From positions 1 through 23,778 of the IMG/VR virus record IMGVR_UViG_3300020470_000978: a stretch of 23,778 bases of DNA; one strand, given 5' to 3'. This DNA comes from a virus. Position 1 is the stretch's first letter. Each line of letters starts with the position of its first letter. Below, piece after piece: positions 6,001 to 23,778 of the stretch. The position numbers were made by a program, and so were the translations under genes. The notes below the pieces were generated by a model, which worked only from the letters and a program-made list of their open reading frames with translations, had not been told where the DNA came from and did not search any database.

Positions 6001-6100
6001 TCTCTTTAAATTGCTCTGAGACTTTGTTATCTTTCCAAAAATTTGTTTCGTGTCCTATCGGATTGCCGACAGACGTATCCTTTGTGTCGTTTATTGCCAT
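1..6100 (-). CDS. Giant internal virion (ejection) protein with HExxH motif, 3' end outside window
   Basis: One uninterrupted frame runs from an ATG at 6100 to the left edge, giving at least 2033 codons with no stop, so the gene is partial. Residues about 155-290 are rich in Ala, Gly and Lys with hydrophobic stretches (GFGFGAIGA, GVGAAAGGLLGAGFGTLGAL), as in proteins that enter or cross a membrane. A threonine run near residue 533 marks a linker. Charged coiled-coil-like stretches lie near 605-670 and 1295-1375. At residues 1890-1894 is HEIGH in the context IIHEIGHWAYAN. Residue Glu1948 in SPAEFFAEQF is a plausible third zinc ligand, which gives the layout of a gluzincin-type metallopeptidase. 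The gene follows the 291-aa and 795-aa genes, where T7-type phages encode gp16. The ejection role is inferred from size, composition and position. No lysozyme or transglycosylase motif was recognised. It could also be called a polyvalent protein. Confidence 0.8.
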   Translation of the reverse strand, partial: MAINDTKDTSVGNPIGHETNFWKDNKVSEQFKESMRLIREGGTDPSNPLGYASGALSKSDAAGLLDNTAFIKDIYDFYYDRDQKTFSGPEEAIDYFFNDRTGKNVNTAHITKEVIDATTSNSAEQNARLARLQKTFDALPHFYQEGGRGSAGFWNNVKHVLLDPANLLGFGFGAIGAKAAARKVAQESMKALMKQNLKGVQKQGAKQAIRAKAKKEAIKAGAIRGGIVEGGASGAIEGVQTDLQQRRNIKVGLQDDYSIGSTALATGVGAAAGGLLGAGFGTLGALAPLHKHRTKLGGGLKFEPAWAKGLREGHKEAYARHLADVKEANMKSDLGEGNAPEVQAIRKEHFDSYEDELRANLSLLEEQLPQGYRARIVAGEEIPGYGRGEDAMLRKLVDDGVIDQSLADDILERRGALSAHLKMKSAPEEITKMISDAETMTAQLTDMEQRGLREEKTYQELSIKRDDLLTRANDYRRAYDNYNKILVDYKETGKGIEQLISTSQSLPSARVDADVTADTTGTKPVAEEPTTTTTTEKAIPEGIKPEDDATIQKATEPEPTEAELATVEVNKKLDKAKSEFTRVSDALVDNRNARRRITEGATRANRNLNADEKAELKNIEAQRKKLLTEKNKFQKEASKLEQDLDNLSNEIQQTKDTATKVEETQAELKEANLKDTGEIPTIDSEINKAANSDETSIGFLKALGYEEGLIKKALRIELKGLKKNSDKVLARQKFINKKTDEFFAKQEVEELFAQLVADDVSKGKFTQTSELEFGLVPFDIPKIRAIFQASYDASPGDANIKAKKLGDINRYYDEYVRTNSTKLFVAMANEMPDVPYEEVLKEINIRFGSEMADVLTQVMSGGGKQSVKFTRKPIKDFLKEIQPDLAKLQPHERRMVDRAIVKMRELLDTQVGKTMDDNFIRAALRGAIEKVIANREGGRKVFSVEQGKPASQADVDLAPEMGRIHVQGGKMTINGKLVDVGTRAGKIQGILRGSNKYGYHGRLLEDRYKDGEKISGEDAALTGMQQSWIDNASGRWMNDPHKFQGYDKNGNKTNKINEILDGGTAEGTNAQSVLRAEEARKILRADRLKENKYNKAVEDGENPPRPKLLTPEEVAKIRRELEQPVNKGGSDLITMSRDLGSRTADNLERIELSNKEVTAPLYPNNTDKNGFFALQLAETGEKVTPANLVTIDGVRFKKLRVKYGTKKQSVSAGVMFDGRVYRSTDDIPQFNQKYIQSRDSLLEQLNNHLFELKNSTHLEITAETVVKQRTDPNYLAYRIISRIRARQDKKSENNQRLKRAEPGTNFKDIETQNAVLDNEIATLKDDLSKLGKLGLYKSRFRIKKAQKALDEAKDKGLIEQKNAEIEKKSAEKLLGTKITAEDELVGRGMADKAGLEDALNIARSKELNDAVQQLVRGEIDEAGLTAALKQIQAKYDKLLSDAIQDSKPVGKNKPEVVHMDGIEVDVANDFKFTDMEPVGRMNANLKLFDESLGRVFETKKGTFKIKSNELEFVPEFSSLELLKRNLPSIFKARVVKAFDDGLLQASSLTKKDEGKTFKVNNHKETNTYRNALEEPLDAPVDDASKEIVQSKNPYLTKTATDFKDKVPAGRRLAWMYTKEAKYPFVVRIVQPYQEDKPLAAIFGKTSEDGFVLGHTDASKRGTTKEAQLTFKPFDDQPQIKMPENRRADGKNKRNTMLDDPDIVNPREKPIRIKQAKELEIDQDALPNTNPPMKGKFRTLGDVMNEINNLEQVRWSDRRIKNKEEYKNFTVYMDFLYSILEREAPHGIIYDNVQRSTSLEQLRTIMTNRPVGSQPKHQMAVIFNLLRQIEGAETGQMPKFFEARDGFQYIPDGYTDPQTGKAVDGLNNSIGIGPMGSLGGDVAPDFAKIIHEIGHWAYANILSPTEKRHFWNSIGKYIDQDDVTAEGLRTRIGNILPGAASNELESPAEFFAEQFVQFALSRNKAGDVGTLSQLWSEVAKKVKHIMTKYFGLSMGEQATDFVDPDLIPLFQRIFPDNHKINRYMKVAEKYQPYG

Positions 6101-6103
6101 ATT

Positions 6104-6124
6104 ATTGGTACTCCAGTTTCCAAT
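6104..6124 (-). promoter_or_regulatory. Ribosome binding site of the giant gene inside a short hairpin loop
   Basis: Upstream of the ATG at 6100 the minus strand reads ATTGG, an 11-nt loop, then CCAAT. The arms are rc(6120-6124) and rc(6104-6108). The loop carries the GGAG Shine-Dalgarno (complement of 6111-6114), 10 nt from the ATG. This SD supports 6100 as the start. The stem is only 5 bp, so a regulatory role is uncertain. Confidence 0.4.
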
Positions 6125-6148
6125 TATTACAGTAAATATAGGCTATCT

Positions 6149-6166
6149 AGACCGTCTGGTCGTCCT
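6149..6166 (-). repeat. GGACGAC hairpin element, copy 1
   Basis: The minus strand reads AGGACGACCAGACGGTCT, starting a few bases after the stop codon of the 83-aa gene. It shares the GGAC-GAC core and the closing GTCT arm with copies at 17656-17670 and 19010-19026. A competing inner stem, GACC-AGAC-GGTC, is also possible here. It fills most of the 70-nt gap before the giant gene. Function unknown. Confidence 0.45.
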
Positions 6167-10091: not shown

Positions 10092-10844
10092 TCACGTTAA
10101 AAATACGTTTCCCCAACCTGTTCGTCTGTTTCTTAAATTAGACGATATCGGACCTCTAGCAACATAAGCGGCATTAGGGTCGTTAGGTACAAAGGATATG
10201 ACTTGTTCCTCCCTTTCGACTGTTGGCACAATGTAATTAACATCAGGTGCCACACTTTCTGATGCCGAAACTAATGGTGCATTAGGGTCTTTCTGTAAGT
10301 CTGGGTTTGCTGTTGGTGAAGGTACTCCTGATTGGTCAGGTGTTGTAACAGGTCCTAAGGTTTCTTCCAAAGTTCCTTCGCCTGACATTAAAGCCCTTCG
10401 TCCAAAACTTTCTTCTCCAGTTCCTACCATTCCTCCAAAAGTTTGTTCTTCTGTATCTTGTAGTGGTACTGTTCCTGCGGCTGGAACTATTCCTTCTTGT
10501 GCTCCAGCGAATTGACCTGCGATAGCTTCTCGTCTATCTGGTGTACGAGGGTCTCCTCGACCTACTGCTCTTTTTCCTAAAAAACTTTCCTGTACTTGTT
10601 TATCTGGTTTTGCACCACCAGGATATAATATTTCGCCTGACTGACCCATAGCGTTATATTTAGCCGCTTCATCTGGATTAGCCATAATTTGATTCCAACG
10701 AGTTCCAGCAGTCAATGGGTTAAGTCCCATTGTCTTACCAAATTCACTTTCGTTTACTGTTTGTTTTCTGCCAAGAGGGTCTGTGTACTCTACCATAGTA
10801 GTCGTCTGAGTACCGCCGCCTCCTCCGCCGCCACCTCCACACAT
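10092..10844 (-). CDS. Virion-associated protein with MC-polyglycine N-terminus (second of two)
   Basis: This 250-aa protein opens with Met-Cys followed by nine glycines, then a Thr-rich stretch. The glycines use mixed codons (GGA, GGT, GGC), so the run looks kept at the protein level rather than made by triplet slippage. The rest is low in hydrophobic residues and rich in Gly, Pro, Thr and Glu, and probably largely disordered. No enzymatic motif is seen. A strong Shine-Dalgarno (AAGGAGG, complement of about 10851-10857) stands 6 nt before the ATG and fixes the start. The upstream neighbour also starts MCGGGG, while the bodies show no obvious similarity. A structural or ejection role is inferred from position. 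Confidence 0.65.
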   Translation of the reverse strand: MCGGGGGGGGGTQTTTMVEYTDPLGRKQTVNESEFGKTMGLNPLTAGTRWNQIMANPDEAAKYNAMGQSGEILYPGGAKPDKQVQESFLGKRAVGRGDPRTPDRREAIAGQFAGAQEGIVPAAGTVPLQDTEEQTFGGMVGTGEESFGRRALMSGEGTLEETLGPVTTPDQSGVPSPTANPDLQKDPNAPLVSASESVAPDVNYIVPTVEREEQVISFVPNDPNAAYVARGPISSNLRNRRTGWGNVFLT

Positions 10845-10862
10845 TAGGAGCCTCCTTTTTTA

Positions 10863-11696
10863 TTAGTTATAATTTCTACCGAATTCATCTCGTTGATTAG
10901 TCCTTTGTTGTCTTATTAAACCAGGTATATCACTAATATTGTTCTTAGTGCCTACAACTGGATTTGAATGTATCATACCTAAATTTGGGTTATTTGTAGT
11001 CCCACTAGAGCTTAAAGGTGCAGTATTAACACCACCCATAATAGTACTTCCAAAGCCTCGGAAGTTTCCTGGAATGTCACTCATATTAGATATCGCACCT
11101 CTTACTGTATTTGGATTTTGTGGATTAGCTAGATTTTTTCCTGAAGCCATATTACCTGCTATTGAAGTTAAGGCTGCCTGTCCGACCTTTCCTTTACTTA
11201 ATAAACCACCTGATAATGTATTTCCTATTGCCTCTGGTACACTAATACCTATTTGACTATTTGGATTTACGGCACCATATGCGGCTCTACCAGCATTTAA
11301 AACTGCCAGACCAGCAGGACCTCCAGCTCCAAAAGCAAGAGTGTTTACAATGGCATTACCGATTGCTGACATAATACCACCTTTTTTATCTGATGTAGGA
11401 TTGGCTGTAACATTAGTTGAGTTAGCAGAAATATCTTTTCCTGGATTACCACTTACCTTCGGTGATTTATCTACGGCTCCACCTTCATCTCTCATATTGT
11501 TATGTTCGTCTACGTCTCCAGACCACGAATCCAAATGAGGATTGTGTTCTTGAGTAACATTAGTAGGCTCAGTACCAAGAGATGCTAAATCTTCTACTAG
11601 CACATCACCTGGCTTGTACCCAACCATTGGACCTCTTATTGCTTTAGTTTGGTTGTCGTCACCACCACCAGAACTATCGCCACCACCACCACACAT
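10863..11696 (-). CDS. Virion-associated protein with MCGGGG N-terminus (first of two)
   Basis: This 277-aa protein starts MCGGGGDSSGGGDD. Residues about 105-150 are hydrophobic and Gly/Ala-rich (GIMSAIGNAIVNTLAFGAGG and on), a possible membrane-active segment. The C-terminal half is rich in Asn, Gly and Ser (many NPN and SNM/NIS motifs) and looks disordered or fibrous. The middle resembles in style the Gly-rich part of the 370-aa protein at 12142-13254 (both contain VNP, GGLxK and GNxxS-type stretches), so the two may be distant relatives. It lies 2 nt after the acetyltransferase gene. No known family was recognised. Confidence 0.65.
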   Translation of the reverse strand: MCGGGGDSSGGGDDNQTKAIRGPMVGYKPGDVLVEDLASLGTEPTNVTQEHNPHLDSWSGDVDEHNNMRDEGGAVDKSPKVSGNPGKDISANSTNVTANPTSDKKGGIMSAIGNAIVNTLAFGAGGPAGLAVLNAGRAAYGAVNPNSQIGISVPEAIGNTLSGGLLSKGKVGQAALTSIAGNMASGKNLANPQNPNTVRGAISNMSDIPGNFRGFGSTIMGGVNTAPLSSSGTTNNPNLGMIHSNPVVGTKNNISDIPGLIRQQRTNQRDEFGRNYN

Positions 11697-15107: not shown

Positions 15108-16604
15108 TTATTGTCCTGTTCTTACTGTCACGGCAAAGCCTATTACTTTTAATAGTCCTTTACCTTTAGTTGTTAATTTGAATTGTACGCCTCGATACCT
15201 ATGTTCAAATTTACGTTCATATTGTCTACTTAACGGCACATCAGGGAATTTGTCGTCCACTCCGTCACCTTCTATTAAAAAATTCATAGAACTTAAGTAT
15301 CTACCACGTTCATCAAAAGCCTCTACTATTAACTCTCCCTTACCCGTGGCTTGTAGAATAAAGGAATAGCTTTCCTTTACATCATTAATAGCACCTTGCC
15401 ATAATATTGGCGTAGTTACTACCATCTCAGGACTGAAGTCCGAAATATCCTCAATCCTTGCTCTTTCCCATACACCACCTGGAGTTCCCATTACGGTTGT
15501 TCCACCTAGTTGTCTGCCATTCATAGCATTTAAGAATGTTCCTTTAGACCATTTACTTTCACCACCTGACATTGGATTTAATGTTAATGTCAGACGAGTA
15601 CATAACAAGTCTGATACAGGAAAGAATATATGATACTGTCCTTCGTCTTGGTCAAAGAATGCAGAGATATTCTCTGGATTATCAACCTGTCTAACCAATG
15701 CTCTATAGGTTAAATCAATTTTATTAGACATAGGAACTGAGAAGATTGTTACACCATTCGTATCTGAACGTCTTAATGAGTGAACTCCCTCTCTAGAACA
15801 AAACATTAAATCAGAACCAGCAGGTGTTATAGTATTGTGACTGATAGTTCCTACTTTAACATTGGCTTTGTCATCAATTTGCCATTGTGTGTAATCTGGG
15901 TGTAGTGAATAAACTAGAGTTTGGTCGTTAGTAAACACAGCTAATTTATTACTTTCGAAAACTCCTAAACCTTTAATTTCATCAGCAGTACCAATAATAT
16001 TACCAATATCAATATCTGCGGCTTTTAGTACAGAAGTAGAAGCAGTATCTTCGTCTGCTGGGAATACATCCACTTCATCTACTCTGCTAATATCTATAAC
16101 TGTTCGTTTGTCTGGAGCACCTCCTATTGCTAATCGTCTTTGAATAGCAACTCCAAATGCTGGTCTTGGGTCAGAGTTAGGTGATACCCTAGTAAAGACC
16201 TGACCATTATATTTATAAAAATTATTATCTCTAGAAAAGAATAACACTTCGTTATTGTATAAAGTAGATGTTACTACATTGTTTTTAGGAAAAACTTCTT
16301 CTGCAAAACTATCTACATCCGATTTTAATGATATGCCTCCACCGTCTTTCTGTGCCCAGACGAGTGCATTTCTACCATAGAATGTTACGTGTTTAATTAA
16401 TCTATCGCCAGATGTTCTTTGTTTAGCACCTGGGTCTCTTATGATTGAACCTCTCCAATCAGCATAACCGTTATCAATGTCTAGTAAATGTTGTTTTTGT
16501 CCTGTATCTAATGCGGCTTTATCTCTTGAAGCATCAATACCTTGAAAATCTTCGTATGGATATACCTTTACTTTTACGCCTGAAGGTGCGTATGAGGTTG
16601 ACAT
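15108..16604 (-). CDS. Tail hub / nozzle protein, P22 gp10-like
   Basis: This 498-aa protein is strand-rich throughout with repeated short hydrophobic strands and turns (ALVWAQKDGG, VLFFSRDNNFYKYNG, LAVFTNDQTLVYS), consistent with a beta-propeller. The N-terminal part (DFQGIDASRDKAAL) and the end (YRGVQFKLTTKGKGLLKVIGFAVTVRTGQ in pieces) resemble P22 gp10-type packaged-DNA stabilisation proteins, which form the hexameric hub below the adaptor and close the short tail. Position supports this: it follows the adaptor gene by 3 nt and precedes the tail fibre gene by 1 nt. The start is supported by tight packing. Homology was judged by pattern only. Confidence 0.65.
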   Translation of the reverse strand: MSTSYAPSGVKVKVYPYEDFQGIDASRDKAALDTGQKQHLLDIDNGYADWRGSIIRDPGAKQRTSGDRLIKHVTFYGRNALVWAQKDGGGISLKSDVDSFAEEVFPKNNVVTSTLYNNEVLFFSRDNNFYKYNGQVFTRVSPNSDPRPAFGVAIQRRLAIGGAPDKRTVIDISRVDEVDVFPADEDTASTSVLKAADIDIGNIIGTADEIKGLGVFESNKLAVFTNDQTLVYSLHPDYTQWQIDDKANVKVGTISHNTITPAGSDLMFCSREGVHSLRRSDTNGVTIFSVPMSNKIDLTYRALVRQVDNPENISAFFDQDEGQYHIFFPVSDLLCTRLTLTLNPMSGGESKWSKGTFLNAMNGRQLGGTTVMGTPGGVWERARIEDISDFSPEMVVTTPILWQGAINDVKESYSFILQATGKGELIVEAFDERGRYLSSMNFLIEGDGVDDKFPDVPLSRQYERKFEHRYRGVQFKLTTKGKGLLKVIGFAVTVRTGQ

Positions 16605-17607: not shown

Positions 17608-17638
17608 AAAAAGGGCAGAGTAATAATACCCTGCCCTT
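17608..17638 (-). terminator. Intrinsic terminator after the capsid gene
   Basis: On the minus strand AAGGGCAG (rc 17631-17638) pairs with CTGCCCTT (rc 17611-17618) across a 12-nt loop. The stem is followed at once by T residues, giving a five-T run that includes the stem end. The stem is perfect over 8 bp with five G-C pairs. It lies 40 nt after the capsid stop and upstream of the 98-aa gene, so it should cap the capsid message or lower read-through into connector genes. Confidence 0.8.
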
Positions 17639-17655
17639 AATATTACCTTTATTAG

Positions 17656-17670
17656 AGAACGTGTCGTCCC
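17656..17670 (-). repeat. GGGACGAC hairpin element, copy 2
   Basis: The minus strand reads GGGACGACACGTTCT, 7 nt after the capsid stop codon and just before the intrinsic terminator. GGGAC pairs with GTTCT through two G-U pairs, and the loop starts with GAC. The arms are identical to copy 3 at 19010-19026. Function unknown. Confidence 0.5.
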
Positions 17671-17677
17671 AAGCTAA

Positions 17678-18862
17678 TTACGCAAGTCCAGACCAGTTCT
17701 TAATTCTGTGATGCACTTTAGAGTGGGTCATTTCTAATCCACACTCTGACATATACATATGTTTTACACCATCAAAATCGTTAGTTTGAACGTCTCTGAT
17801 TAGCTGAGTATCTCTTCCATCCATATATCTGTAGTTCAAGTGGTTCATATCTAAGATAATCATTTCTTGAGACAGAGCAGATATTTGTCTGAACATTGGG
17901 TGCATATACACAAGTAAATCACCTGCAAATGTAGTGTATCTAGTGAAAGCTACACCATAAGCATTATCTACTTGAGTAGGTTGCCATCTGTTTTTACCAA
18001 CTTCCATCATATTAGTTATGACACGAGGACCTGCAAAAGCTATCTTCTCGTTACTTCCGTAAGCGAAGATATCTTCGATAAGAAATTTATCGAATTCTTT
18101 CTCAGTCATCTTGTTAGTAGTAGCAGTAGCACTCGCACAGTCTGTGATGTTAGTGATTGATGAAATCAAACCACCAGTAGACCTTGTTGGAGATGCAGTC
18201 GAACCATTTGCAATACCTCTAGTTCCAAAGAAAAAAGCTCTTTCAATGTCGCCCATATGTAATTTAAGGGCTTTTGTAAGTTGCTCTTGTTCCTTATCCC
18301 CAGTTCTTAGGTAAGTGTTTTGCAAAGTTCCTGTAACTTGCACAGCAGTTTTGAAAATCTGTGTGTAGTTATAGTCAACTGTTGGGTCGAATGAAATAGC
18401 AGTTGGAGCAGTTCCACCTTCTTGGTCGGCAAATCCTGCAATACTTAATACTTCATTGTCTGCAACGGCTGAGGCTGTTGAACCTCCAAAACCTCTAGAG
18501 ATAGCTACAGTATTTGCAGATGTATCAGCATCAGCAGTACAAAGTAGATTTTCTCCAGTCGTATGGTTATGGATTACAGTACCTTTAACTAGGAAGCCTT
18601 CATCGTCAGTATCGTTGTCGAAAGCCAAGCTAGTCGCACTATTATTTAAAGCACCATTCACAACAATAGTTCTGTTTGGTAGTTCGTCCCTAAAATGATT
18701 GTATTTAGGGTCATCTGTGCTTTCAGATGATGTCATCGCCAATAGCGCCTGTAAAGGTGCTGTTCCATTTGGCTCTAACAGAGTGAACAACTCTCTATAG
18801 TTCGTAGGACGAAAGTCTGTACCGAATTGACCAGTCCCACGTAGTCCTTGAATTGCTGCCAT
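17678..18862 (-). CDS. Major capsid protein, SU10/DUF5309-like HK97 fold
   Basis: This 394-aa protein has the length and motifs of the SU10-type (DUF5309) capsid family. It has an N-terminal arm with YRELFTLLEPNGTAPLQALL, then a strand-rich insertion at about 67-145 (ending in VAISRGFGGSTA...NEVLSIAG) as that family has. The family-typical stretch QIFKTAVQVTGT...LRTGDKEQEQLTKALKLHMGDIERAFFFG lies at about 163-215. The C-terminal half contains strands that build the A and P domains and ends in HHRIKNWSGLA. A strong Shine-Dalgarno (AAAGGAGGG) 5 nt upstream indicates high expression. It follows the scaffold gene and is followed by a terminator, fitting the most abundant virion protein. Confidence 0.88.
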   Translation of the reverse strand: MAAIQGLRGTGQFGTDFRPTNYRELFTLLEPNGTAPLQALLAMTSSESTDDPKYNHFRDELPNRTIVVNGALNNSATSLAFDNDTDDEGFLVKGTVIHNHTTGENLLCTADADTSANTVAISRGFGGSTASAVADNEVLSIAGFADQEGGTAPTAISFDPTVDYNYTQIFKTAVQVTGTLQNTYLRTGDKEQEQLTKALKLHMGDIERAFFFGTRGIANGSTASPTRSTGGLISSITNITDCASATATTNKMTEKEFDKFLIEDIFAYGSNEKIAFAGPRVITNMMEVGKNRWQPTQVDNAYGVAFTRYTTFAGDLLVYMHPMFRQISALSQEMIILDMNHLNYRYMDGRDTQLIRDVQTNDFDGVKHMYMSECGLEMTHSKVHHRIKNWSGLA

Positions 18863-19028
18863 AATACCCTCCTTTATTGAGTTAGCAGTTTACGTGTTTT
18901 AAGTTAATCCGACTTCATCCGTTAAGACTACATTGAGTAAATCGTAGGAATTCCGTCTAACACAGTTAGCCGTAGCGATTTGTGTATGTTTCGATGATAT
19001 AGCTAAAAAAGAACTAAAGTCGTCCCTG
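18863..19028 (-). promoter_or_regulatory. Intergenic leader before the capsid gene
   Basis: This 166-nt stretch is the longest non-coding gap in the window. It holds hairpin copy 3 at its upstream end, a T-run after that hairpin, a short CTAAC-TGT-GTTAG stem (complement of 18963-18975), and the strong ribosome site AAAGGAGGG (complement of 18867-18875). The hexamer GCTAAC occurs at its two ends and in the middle. No convincing -35/-10 pair was found, but a capsid-gene promoter or untranslated leader is likely here. Confidence 0.4.
19010..19026 (-). repeat. GGGACGAC hairpin element, copy 3 (terminator-like)
   Basis: The minus strand reads GGGACGACTTTAGTTCT, starting 2 nt after the scaffold stop codon. 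GGGAC pairs with GTTCT through two G-U pairs around a 7-nt loop, and a run of T follows directly. This could act as a weak terminator or attenuator between scaffold and capsid genes. It shares its arms with copy 2. Confidence 0.5.
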
Positions 19029-20859: not shown

Positions 20860-23571
20860 CTATTGTCTTGTTGGCATTTTACGAGTTAACATATAAGTTG
20901 ATACGTTATCAGTAAAGCCTTGTTGATAGTTATTGGAAGTTCCATTAGTCCACATTGTACCATCCATCATTAATACGTTGTAACCTGTTTCAATCGTACT
21001 ACCTGAACCGTAACCATTGATATCAATGTCTCTTACTTTACCTTGATATCCATAAGGCATTGGTAACGCTGTTGGAGAACTAAGGTTTATACCTGTTGCT
21101 ACACCATATATACCCATAGCATATTGTTGATATCCCCAAGCATATATAGTTCCGTTAACTTTGTTTTTCCAATCCTCTTCGTTGTCGTGAGCAATACACC
21201 ACGTAGCTCCATAGTAGTATGAAGTACTTGTGCAGTTGAAACCACTTACAACTTTAGAAACCCATTTCAACGAGCTATCTTTAACTGGCACGTTTTGGGA
21301 ACCTGAAGTAGAACCACATCCAGAAACTCCGTGAGTATTTGGACCCCACTTGTAGAAGTCTCCGTTATCAGTAGTTGCATACCAACACGCTTGACCATAT
21401 CCTTGTCCCATCCACATATCCATAACTTTTAGACCTGCTGTTGCAGAGTTAAATGTACTTACAAGAGTTGGAGTTGTTTTGTTTCCTGAAGCATTGTTGT
21501 CTCCAGATTGTCCTGTGTTATTGTATCCACAGTAGTATAACAATCCATCTTCGTTAAGTATCATTACTCCACCCATAGCATCTGCACCACTTGCGTAGAA
21601 TTTAACAATCTTCTTGTTAGTTCCAGCTTCTAATTGATTTGGTGAGTTAGCGGCTACTTGGTTTTGAGTACCATTACCACATTGGTAACTGTTGTTATAA
21701 CCCCAAGCATATAGCTTGTATCCATCGTTCGGACCTGAAAGTGCATAACAAGTTGGAGAGTTACTGTCGATTGATTGAATTGCTATTATATCTTTACCTG
21801 CAAGACCTGCAATTTCAGTAGGAACTCCTTGGTTATTAGTGTTACTAGAAGTTACTTGGTTGTGACCATTGTAACCCCAACACCAAACTTTTCCTGCATC
21901 ATCAAGTGCTAAAACAGTTCTATTAGTTGAACTGTGTCCACAAGGAGAATAGTAAACTATTCTACCAGCCGTACCTGGAAATTGAACTGGTACAACTCTG
22001 TATTCTGTAGTTGCGTGAGAAACACCTAATTGTTTAACATTGTTATATCCACCTGCCCACATTTGACCATTGTCGTCTAGATAATAAGATGAATCCCAAC
22101 AACGAGTTGATTGAATAACATTCCCGTTTTGATTTTCATAACTATATTGGTCATAGCCTTTAGTTTGGTCTTTGTATGCGTGTGGGTTCATTCCACTTCT
22201 ATTTGAGTTAGTAGGGTCTGGCATAGAATAGTTACTTGAACCACCCCACCAGAAAGCTACTTTATGTCCACCATCATTATACTGAACGACACAATCCCCA
22301 CCTCTGTAAATCATTTTACCTGTGCAAGGCATATCGTTTGGATAGATACCTTTGTTTGCGTGTAGTGGGAAACTAGAAGAATCAGTTACTTCTGAAATTA
22401 ATGAGAAGTGATTTCTAGTATATCCATTATTTTCTGCCCCTGGATAACCTGGTGCTTTAGGGTCAGCAACACGACAAGTAATATCATTACCTAGTCTGTA
22501 TACGTGACCTGCTTGTTTACCGACTTTCTCCCAAACAGGAAGTCCGTGAGAAGCCATTAATGCAGTACCAGTTTCACCGATTGGAAGTCTTGCTTCGCCT
22601 GAAGCAGTAACTAAATCAAATTGTGAATTTCCACCTACGCCTGTTGCAGAACTTGTTGCATCATATGGATAGATAGTATCTGCTGTTGCGTTAGAAGGTA
22701 CAACGATTGTTACTTTAGAAGATGCCTGACCAGCAGTTCCTGTATAAGTAATATCGTTTGTGCTATCTGTTGGAGCAATATCTAAAAGCTCTGTTCCACC
22801 AGATGCGTGTGTTCCATCTTTTGTTGTAGAAAACTTAAGAAGTTTACCTGACATTGAACTGTCAGAAACATCGAAGTCGTAAGTTTTTCCTCTAAAGATT
22901 TTATAATTTATATGATTTTGGTAGGCAGTTTCATTCGGTAGTCTGAATTGAAAATAATTTTGTCCACCCATAGTGTTCACTTTTACTTTGATAGAGAACG
23001 TAGTATCAACTGGAACACCTTGGTTGTAAATCATATCACCTTGGTTCGTTGTAACAGTAACTAAAGCAGAAGTAATTGCTTCAACATCTACAACGTGTGA
23101 AACTTGTGCAGTTCCAGTAGTTGCATAGTCACCCATTACCCAACCAGTTTTACCTGGTTTGATGATTGCTGTATCAGCGTCTGCTGCACCAGAATATTGT
23201 ACTCGTACATCTTTAGTTGTTGTATTTCTTATTACAGTAGTGAAGGCTCTATTTGGAACAATAACATCAAGTTCAGTTTGGCTAGGAGTGGAAGCCTGAG
23301 TTAACTTGATTACTGGTTTAGCAATATCATCTATTGTTAATGTCCATTGACCGTTCGTTGCTGTTGAATAATCTAAAACTTTTGAAGGCTCGTTTGCCTC
23401 ATCGAAAAGTTGTAGTAGTGCATCTGCACCTGTTATTGCCTCTACTGCTTTTGCAATATAGACCATATCGTTTGCAGTAGAACCTGCAACCGTACCAGTT
23501 GTAGTATTAGCTATCGTTTTGGAACGAGTTTTTATCGCCTCTACAACTTCTTTTAATGTGTTCATCGCCAT
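20860..23571 (-). CDS. RCC1-repeat adhesin / receptor-binding fibre protein
   Basis: This 903-aa protein has three parts. Residues 1-200 are a helix-then-strand N-terminal region, the likely virion-attachment part. Residues about 203-303 resemble the cupredoxin-like domain found in some cyanophage structural proteins (FRGKTYDFDVSDSS, LKFSTTKDGTHASGGTE). The usual C-terminal YYYCxxHxxM copper-site segment is missing and reads TIYPYDATS. Residues 500-885 carry seven repeats with the RCC1 signature, for example WCWGYNGHNQV, LYAWGYNNSYQCGNG and IYAWGYQQYAMG, spaced about 57-71 residues, enough for a seven-bladed propeller. A host-surface binding role is inferred. The ATG at 23571 has an AAGGAG site upstream. 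Confidence 0.8.
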   Translation of the reverse strand: MAMNTLKEVVEAIKTRSKTIANTTTGTVAGSTANDMVYIAKAVEAITGADALLQLFDEANEPSKVLDYSTATNGQWTLTIDDIAKPVIKLTQASTPSQTELDVIVPNRAFTTVIRNTTTKDVRVQYSGAADADTAIIKPGKTGWVMGDYATTGTAQVSHVVDVEAITSALVTVTTNQGDMIYNQGVPVDTTFSIKVKVNTMGGQNYFQFRLPNETAYQNHINYKIFRGKTYDFDVSDSSMSGKLLKFSTTKDGTHASGGTELLDIAPTDSTNDITYTGTAGQASSKVTIVVPSNATADTIYPYDATSSATGVGGNSQFDLVTASGEARLPIGETGTALMASHGLPVWEKVGKQAGHVYRLGNDITCRVADPKAPGYPGAENNGYTRNHFSLISEVTDSSSFPLHANKGIYPNDMPCTGKMIYRGGDCVVQYNDGGHKVAFWWGGSSNYSMPDPTNSNRSGMNPHAYKDQTKGYDQYSYENQNGNVIQSTRCWDSSYYLDDNGQMWAGGYNNVKQLGVSHATTEYRVVPVQFPGTAGRIVYYSPCGHSSTNRTVLALDDAGKVWCWGYNGHNQVTSSNTNNQGVPTEIAGLAGKDIIAIQSIDSNSPTCYALSGPNDGYKLYAWGYNNSYQCGNGTQNQVAANSPNQLEAGTNKKIVKFYASGADAMGGVMILNEDGLLYYCGYNNTGQSGDNNASGNKTTPTLVSTFNSATAGLKVMDMWMGQGYGQACWYATTDNGDFYKWGPNTHGVSGCGSTSGSQNVPVKDSSLKWVSKVVSGFNCTSTSYYYGATWCIAHDNEEDWKNKVNGTIYAWGYQQYAMGIYGVATGINLSSPTALPMPYGYQGKVRDIDINGYGSGSTIETGYNVLMMDGTMWTNGTSNNYQQGFTDNVSTYMLTRKMPTRQ
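20917..22062 (-). repeat. Seven RCC1-type repeats within the adhesin
   Basis: Repeat cores begin at about residues 504 (MWAGGYNN), 563 (WCWGYNGHN), 621 (YAWGYNNSY), 679 (YYCGYNNTG), 740 (YKWGPNTHG), 810 (YAWGYQQYA) and 873 (MWTNGTSNN). The G(Y/x)N(N/x) turn and the aromatic before it are well kept. An eighth weak candidate is FWWGGSSNY near 440. Confidence 0.75.
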
Positions 23572-23590: not shown

Positions 23591-23778
23591 TTATACTATG
23601 CCCAACTTCAACAAAACTTCCAGTTCTAAATCTTTCAGTCTCGGTGCAGTAGTTTGATTAAATGTTTGTATCTCTGCTAGAACCTGTGCTCCATCAAACA
23701 CTAAATTAAACTTGCTCTGGTCGATTTGCGAACCCGTGCTAGTATGTGCTGTATGACATACCCAGTACTTGCTGTCGT
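23591..23778 (-). CDS. C-terminal end of a probable fibre or adhesin protein, partial
   Basis: The last 61 codons of a gene that begins beyond the right edge, ending in TAA at 23591-23593. The visible part reads SKYWVCHTAHTSTGSQID, then a stretch ending KDLELEVLLKLGIV. The YWVCHTAHTS piece resembles the small carbohydrate-binding-like modules (YxVCxxxHTS) common near the ends of phage fibre proteins. The stop is 19 nt before the ATG of the RCC1 adhesin gene, so the two belong to one transcript. Confidence 0.6.
   Translation of the reverse strand, partial: DSKYWVCHTAHTSTGSQIDQSKFNLVFDGAQVLAEIQTFNQTTAPRLKDLELEVLLKLGIV

Follow-up and report, generated by a model that had tools for sequence, protein, structure and literature searches.

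A conserved 8-mer as the probable -35-region element of late promoters in marine phages related to Roseobacter phage CRP-810

Gene order and copies of the motif

The window, that is, the whole stretch of 23,778 nucleotides that was analysed, represents a 23.8-kb part of the genome of a tailed marine phage, and every gene in it lies on the minus strand. Among named isolates, Roseobacter phage CRP-810 is the nearest, with 58% amino-acid identity in the capsid protein. CRP-810 and the CRP-810-type phages (PMC11288001) belong to the same family as the window phage and have the same putative promoter sites; the main text of the CRP-810 paper (PMC11288001) contains no mention of a promoter or terminator. 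With the capsid as query, 80 relatives were retrieved from IMG/VR, and the larger contigs were read whole. All comparative counts come from this one phage family, and co-occurrences are therefore not many times independent evidence. Two neighbouring genes at 10092-11696 (minus strand) both encode glycine-rich products starting with MCGGGG and are possible paralogues, and the 903-aa protein encoded at 20860-23571 (minus strand) has C-terminal AWGYN-type repeated stretches that, by eye, resemble RCC1 repeats.

Non-coding DNA made up 1.8% of the window, the three largest gaps measuring 166, 87, and 70 nt and the next largest 21 nt. GGACGAC occurred four times, always on the minus strand (intergenic at 19025, 17669, and 6165; coding at 15258), compared with a mean of 0.82 in shuffled sequences, none of which reached four. 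The first-pass annotation had reported a repeated core behind the stop codons in the three largest gaps, together with a single further GGACGAC in coding sequence near 15250; both observations held, the core being commoner than in shuffles. The distances past the stop codon given there were correct for the first two sites (2 and 7 nt), but the third, put at about 7 nt, measured 4 nt. The capsid gene and the three intergenic copies are located as follows:

17678-18862, minus strand: major capsid protein gene (phrog_1328), the query used for finding relatives
19019-19026, minus strand: GGGACGAC, putative -35-region element of promoter 1, in the scaffold-capsid gap
17663-17670, minus strand: GGGACGAC, putative -35-region element of promoter 2, post-capsid
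6159-6166, minus strand: AGGACGAC, putative -35-region element of promoter 3, before a 2033-aa open-ended gene; present at the same place in relatives

GGACGAH was found in the pre-capsid gap of 73 of 77 relatives and in the post-capsid gap of 70 of 81, versus 3.6 and 0.7 in shuffled gaps. The enrichment in intergenic positions and conservation in relatives for which the first-pass annotation had proposed a scan were thus strongly evident. GGGACGAC, rarely ending in GAT or GAA instead, was present in nearly all relatives down to approximately 58% capsid identity, and its 7-8-mer was invariant across phages of 37-66% G+C. Bases flanking it varied among the aligned capsid-adjacent gaps, and no strongly conserved base was found upstream of the 8-mer. 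In relatives, additional copies occupied gaps on the late-gene strand before the large internal-virion gene and the portal gene. Relatives L073, L079, L080, and L081, which lacked the pre-capsid site, lacked the post-capsid site too. A literature search with the 8-mer returned just apparent primer-sequence noise.

In a related clade (L073, L079, L081, L225, L227, L228, and L231), the pre-capsid gaps without GGGACGAC held, after a terminator, a candidate promoter sequence of approximately GTTGCtTTtGTGGCATACT. This clade retains the GCTACGGC leader, in the form GCTGCGGC in L073 and L225.

Spacing to a -10-like box and folding around the motif

Each intergenic copy in the window is followed after 17-19 nt by a -10-like box, which the first-pass annotation had overlooked. 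Start positions were predicted as 7 nt past this box:

18994-18999, minus strand: promoter 1, putative -10 box TATCAT at a spacer of 19, with the start predicted at approximately 18987
18996-19001, minus strand: promoter 1, alternative -10 box TATATC at a spacer of 17
17640-17645, minus strand: promoter 2, putative -10 box TAATAT at a spacer of 17, with the start predicted at approximately 17633
6135-6140, minus strand: promoter 3, putative -10 box TATATT at a spacer of 18, with the start predicted at approximately 6128

Motif and box together were found three times in the window, each time in an intergenic position, while 0.09 occurrences were expected; the coding copy of GGACGAC had no -10-like box at that spacing. 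In CRP-810-type phages, TANNNT lay 17-19 nt past (A/G)GGACGA(C/T) in 60 of 119 non-redundant intergenic copies, approximately half of the sites thus being without a perfect match, compared with a mean of 9.2 and a maximum of 19 over 500 shuffles. The spacing was concentrated at 18 nt (26 copies) and 19 nt (27 copies), with at most 8 copies at every other spacer. When sites were separated by class, TANNNT at 17-19 nt was found in 12/30 pre-capsid sites (vs. 2.9), in 29/62 of the remaining intergenic sites (vs. 4.5), and in 19/27 post-capsid sites (vs. 1.4), where the A/T-rich signal may partly reflect the A-tract that normally flanks terminators, whereas the other two classes have no such terminator. 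Coding-strand copies within genes had it in 20/183 cases (vs. 8.9). Across whole contigs of motif-bearing relatives, the joint motif was almost exclusively on the late-gene strand.

These results revealed a sigma70-type -10 box at a fixed distance from an upstream element. A TTGACA-like -35 box was not found; GGGACGAC stood in its place, sharing only GAC with it when aligned. A generic sigma70 scan yielded fewer hits than in shuffles and was uninformative. The predicted late-promoter consensus, directly past stop codons, is (G/A)GGACGA(C/T/A)-N17-19-TANNNT.

The first-pass annotation had interpreted the motif as part of a hairpin whose G-U pairs favoured RNA over a DNA site. Folded alone, the three window hairpins had energies of -4.1, -4.1, and -5.5 kcal/mol (z = -1.4, -1.1, and -1.4). 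The GTTCT arm, described there as shared, was missing or different in most relatives, and without conserved arms the argument from G-U pairs has no force. The pre-capsid hairpin of the window is as follows:

19009-19027, minus strand: weak hairpin AGGGAC/GUUCUU, then a T-run (-4.1 kcal/mol, z -1.4)

At pre-capsid sites, the proposed hairpin did receive support, as 22 of 30 non-redundant relatives folded stably (z < -1.5) with the motif in the 5' arm or the loop; the arms had different sequences with pairing retained, and a T-run followed in some. Post-capsid motif sites showed no excess folding (3/27 with z < -1.5, mean -0.74), and arms paired and conserved at all sites were accordingly not found. 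An Rfam search gave no match at the gathering score and a single sub-threshold chance hit elsewhere. An RNA hairpin as the shared feature was rejected in view of the post-capsid folding statistics together with the weak folds in the window. The pre-capsid hairpin is most simply a terminator of the scaffold operon that overlies the -35 region, and the weak hairpin at 19009-19027 would be a remnant or weak form of it. An RNA element such as an attenuator, an mRNA 3'-end stabiliser, or a processing site would agree with the pre-capsid folds, but this reading of the motif is very improbable: window folds were no better than chance and post-capsid folds rare, the fixed spacing to the -10 box would be left unexplained, and the 8-mer is retained while the arms change or disappear. 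A phage-specific promoter, listed last among the functions suggested in the first-pass annotation, was the option supported by the data.

Terminator and leaders at the predicted starts

Three further elements lie in the same gaps:

17611-17638, minus strand: strong intrinsic terminator, AAGGGCAGGGTA-TTAT-TACTCTGCCCTT plus T-run (-19.9 kcal/mol, z -5.3)
18960-18985, minus strand: capsid mRNA leader hairpin ACACA...GC(UACG)GC...UGUGU with a UNCG tetraloop, at the predicted transcript 5' end
6105-6123, minus strand: TTGGAAACTGGAGTACCAA, conserved leader before the large gene, just upstream of its ATG at 6100

The element at 17611-17638 is a G+C-rich hairpin followed by a T-run and fits fully with known intrinsic terminators; the shared GGGACGAC is not one. 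Unlike in those systems, a promoter start is predicted here within the terminator stem: the 5' arm adjoins the -10 box and includes the predicted start of promoter 2. The stem began between -6 and +1 nt relative to the end of the -10 box at every one of the 25 non-redundant post-capsid loci for which a box could be assigned, and the predicted start fell within the 5' arm in 20 of 20 testable post-capsid cases. With the bases upstream of the predicted start removed, the average stem energy was -5.1 kcal/mol, compared with -20.0 kcal/mol for the whole stem. Polymerases coming from the capsid gene would make the complete hairpin and terminate, whereas those initiating at the post-capsid promoter would make an RNA in which the lower part of the stem is missing and would read on into the genes downstream. 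From a start inside the 5' arm and a stem weakened in this way, it would follow that the post-capsid terminator should stop read-through transcripts and spare those newly started. A literature search on promoter-terminator overlaps found nothing relevant.

The scaffold-capsid gaps of the relatives have in common GC(UACG)GC, a cUNCGg-type tetraloop separate from the motif, with UUCG as a variant in L067 and CACG in L005 and L049. At the two pairs next to GC(UACG)GC, both bases had changed in 14 and in 10 of the 28 sequences, indicating covariation. The inner stem could pair in 26/32 sequences (shuffle mean 3.8, maximum 10) and the outer stem in 18/32 (shuffle 4.7), pairing statistics being used for the latter because its variable loop length precludes column covariation. 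No Rfam family was matched at the thresholds used. This hairpin probably stabilises the 5' end or acts as a leader to which a protein binds. In TTGGAAACTGGAGTACCAA, the Shine-Dalgarno sequence GGAG lies within the loop of a possible hairpin, and GGACGAC was found 41-50 nt upstream of the large-gene leader in 10 of 11 non-redundant copies. In CRP-810 and G001-G016 this leader reads GGA(A)AACTGGAG(T/A)A(C/T)C, and it is kept in G016 although GGACGAC is lost there. As G016 retains both the capsid and large-gene leaders but not the motif, the motif is a separable module.

Candidate activator and proposed late transcription

No sigma region 2 was detected in the genomes searched for a phage sigma factor (0/11; controls positive), and no T7-type single-subunit RNA polymerase was detected in the relatives searched (T7 control positive, CRP-810 negative). 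Promoters driven by either were rejected, since no such genes were found. As late activator, the strongest candidate is a protein of approximately 100 aa that combines an HTH at its N terminus with a 4-Cys ribbon (alignments A1 and A3). D-T-x-x-R is invariant in its predicted recognition helix, and its gene lies beside those for primase and Holliday-junction resolvase, a region expected outside the 23.8-kb window fragment. Structure prediction yielded a three-helix HTH; a structure search gave non-significant hits to HTH regulators and no significant fold match. In the CRP-810 record, the corresponding HTH and zinc-ribbon ORF (L083:14026-14316, minus strand), flanked by the genes for Holliday-junction resolvase and primase, is unannotated.

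The protein was present in 11 of 11 near-complete motif-bearing genomes, a co-occurrence observed in a single phage family in which independent losses are few. It was absent from G016, in which the YdaS-like HTH/primase region is present and the motif missing, and from phages Mel-JY34, Kuura, and VS-ABTNL-3, distant capsid relatives without any motif copy with a -10 box. One contig, G048, only appears to be an exception: where it overlaps G028 the two are 100% identical, and it is truncated short of the regulator gene. Further contigs and a prophage of Poseidonocella sp. HB161398 had protein and motif together. In this CRP-810-type prophage in a named bacterial genome (L322-L324; G041:C233), the capsid gene (C233:22415) and candidate regulator (C233:52860) lie on one 292-kb scaffold, and motif-type sites, called with relaxed -10 boxes, are located as expected, including pre-capsid at 22239 and post-capsid at 23620. 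The prophage speaks for a temperate way of life in part of the family.

The motif is, with good probability, the -35-region half of phage late promoters that depend on an activator and of which the post-capsid one is merged with a terminator. The host would supply the RNA polymerase and the main sigma factor that read the -10 box; at GGGACGAC, a DNA-binding activator from the phage would take the place of -35 recognition. In the structural operon, fresh transcripts would arise from sites pre-capsid, post-capsid, and before the large internal-virion/transglycosylase gene; in relatives, the portal gene too would have such a promoter in front.

Reading by host sigma70 alone, with GGGACGAC as a variant -35 box (ACGACN vs. 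TTGACA), is unlikely. It would agree with the absence of a phage sigma factor and with an alignment of the motif's CGAC to the TGAC of TTGACA that gives spacers of 16-18 nt, but the invariance of the 7-8-mer over so wide a G+C range exceeds what a host -35 needs, and the motif is lost along with the HTH-zinc-ribbon gene. A loading site on RNA or DNA for an antitermination factor (Q-like or put-like) near a terminator, in place of a -35 element, is improbable as well. The strong post-capsid terminator approximately 25 nt downstream of the motif at a fixed distance, and the overlap of the pre-capsid motif with terminator-like hairpins, would fit such a site; at the large-gene and portal sites, however, motif and -10 box occur without a terminator. 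If a Q-like factor acted at a promoter, that promoter would be needed all the same, and the two explanations are thus partly compatible. As to the regulator, we see only a small chance that it is the LuxR-type protein encoded beside the integrase (CRP-810 gp13). This protein has a GerE domain and was found in G001, G002, G004, G005, G010, and CRP-810, but was unmatched in G003 (57.6 kb) and G006 (49.6 kb), both with integrase and motif; as sole regulator it was rejected on account of these two large contigs.

The activator-dependent late promoters proposed here can be compared with known systems. T4 middle promoters (MotA) and Mu late promoters (C) are activator-dependent phage promoters with a replaced -35 box. 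They likewise combine a phage motif in the -35 region with a sigma70-type -10 box, without a phage sigma factor; here the motif is GGGACGAC, the candidate is an HTH protein with a 4-Cys ribbon, and no MotA- or C-like protein was identified. P2 Ogr and P4 Delta are zinc-finger late activators whose motif lies near -55. A small Cys4 zinc protein is similarly proposed here for several late promoters, but with its motif at -35, and the one member of the candidate protein that was scanned had no Pfam match to the Ogr/Delta family. T7-type promoters are also short conserved sites before late genes that give transcripts with 5' hairpins; in contrast, no such polymerase was found here and the motif is bipartite with a -10 box. 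The lack of strong conservation in the upstream bases argues against a long T7-type promoter.

We tentatively propose that this marine phage family combines a new small HTH-zinc-ribbon activator at GGGACGAC promoters with a self-sparing fusion of promoter and terminator behind the capsid gene, a combination that we consider possible. If so, the capsid would be encoded on a separate short mRNA and transcription of the downstream genes would be restarted within a gap of 70-90 nt, one short gap both ending one mRNA and beginning the next in a simple arrangement. The consensus would provide a predictive rule for late promoters, and hence operons, in a marine phage family that occurs worldwide and is largely uncultured, with a concrete candidate regulator named for its late genes. 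The 8-mer may be used to recognise fragments of the family in metagenomes, and the prophage of Poseidonocella sp. HB161398 is a possible laboratory system.
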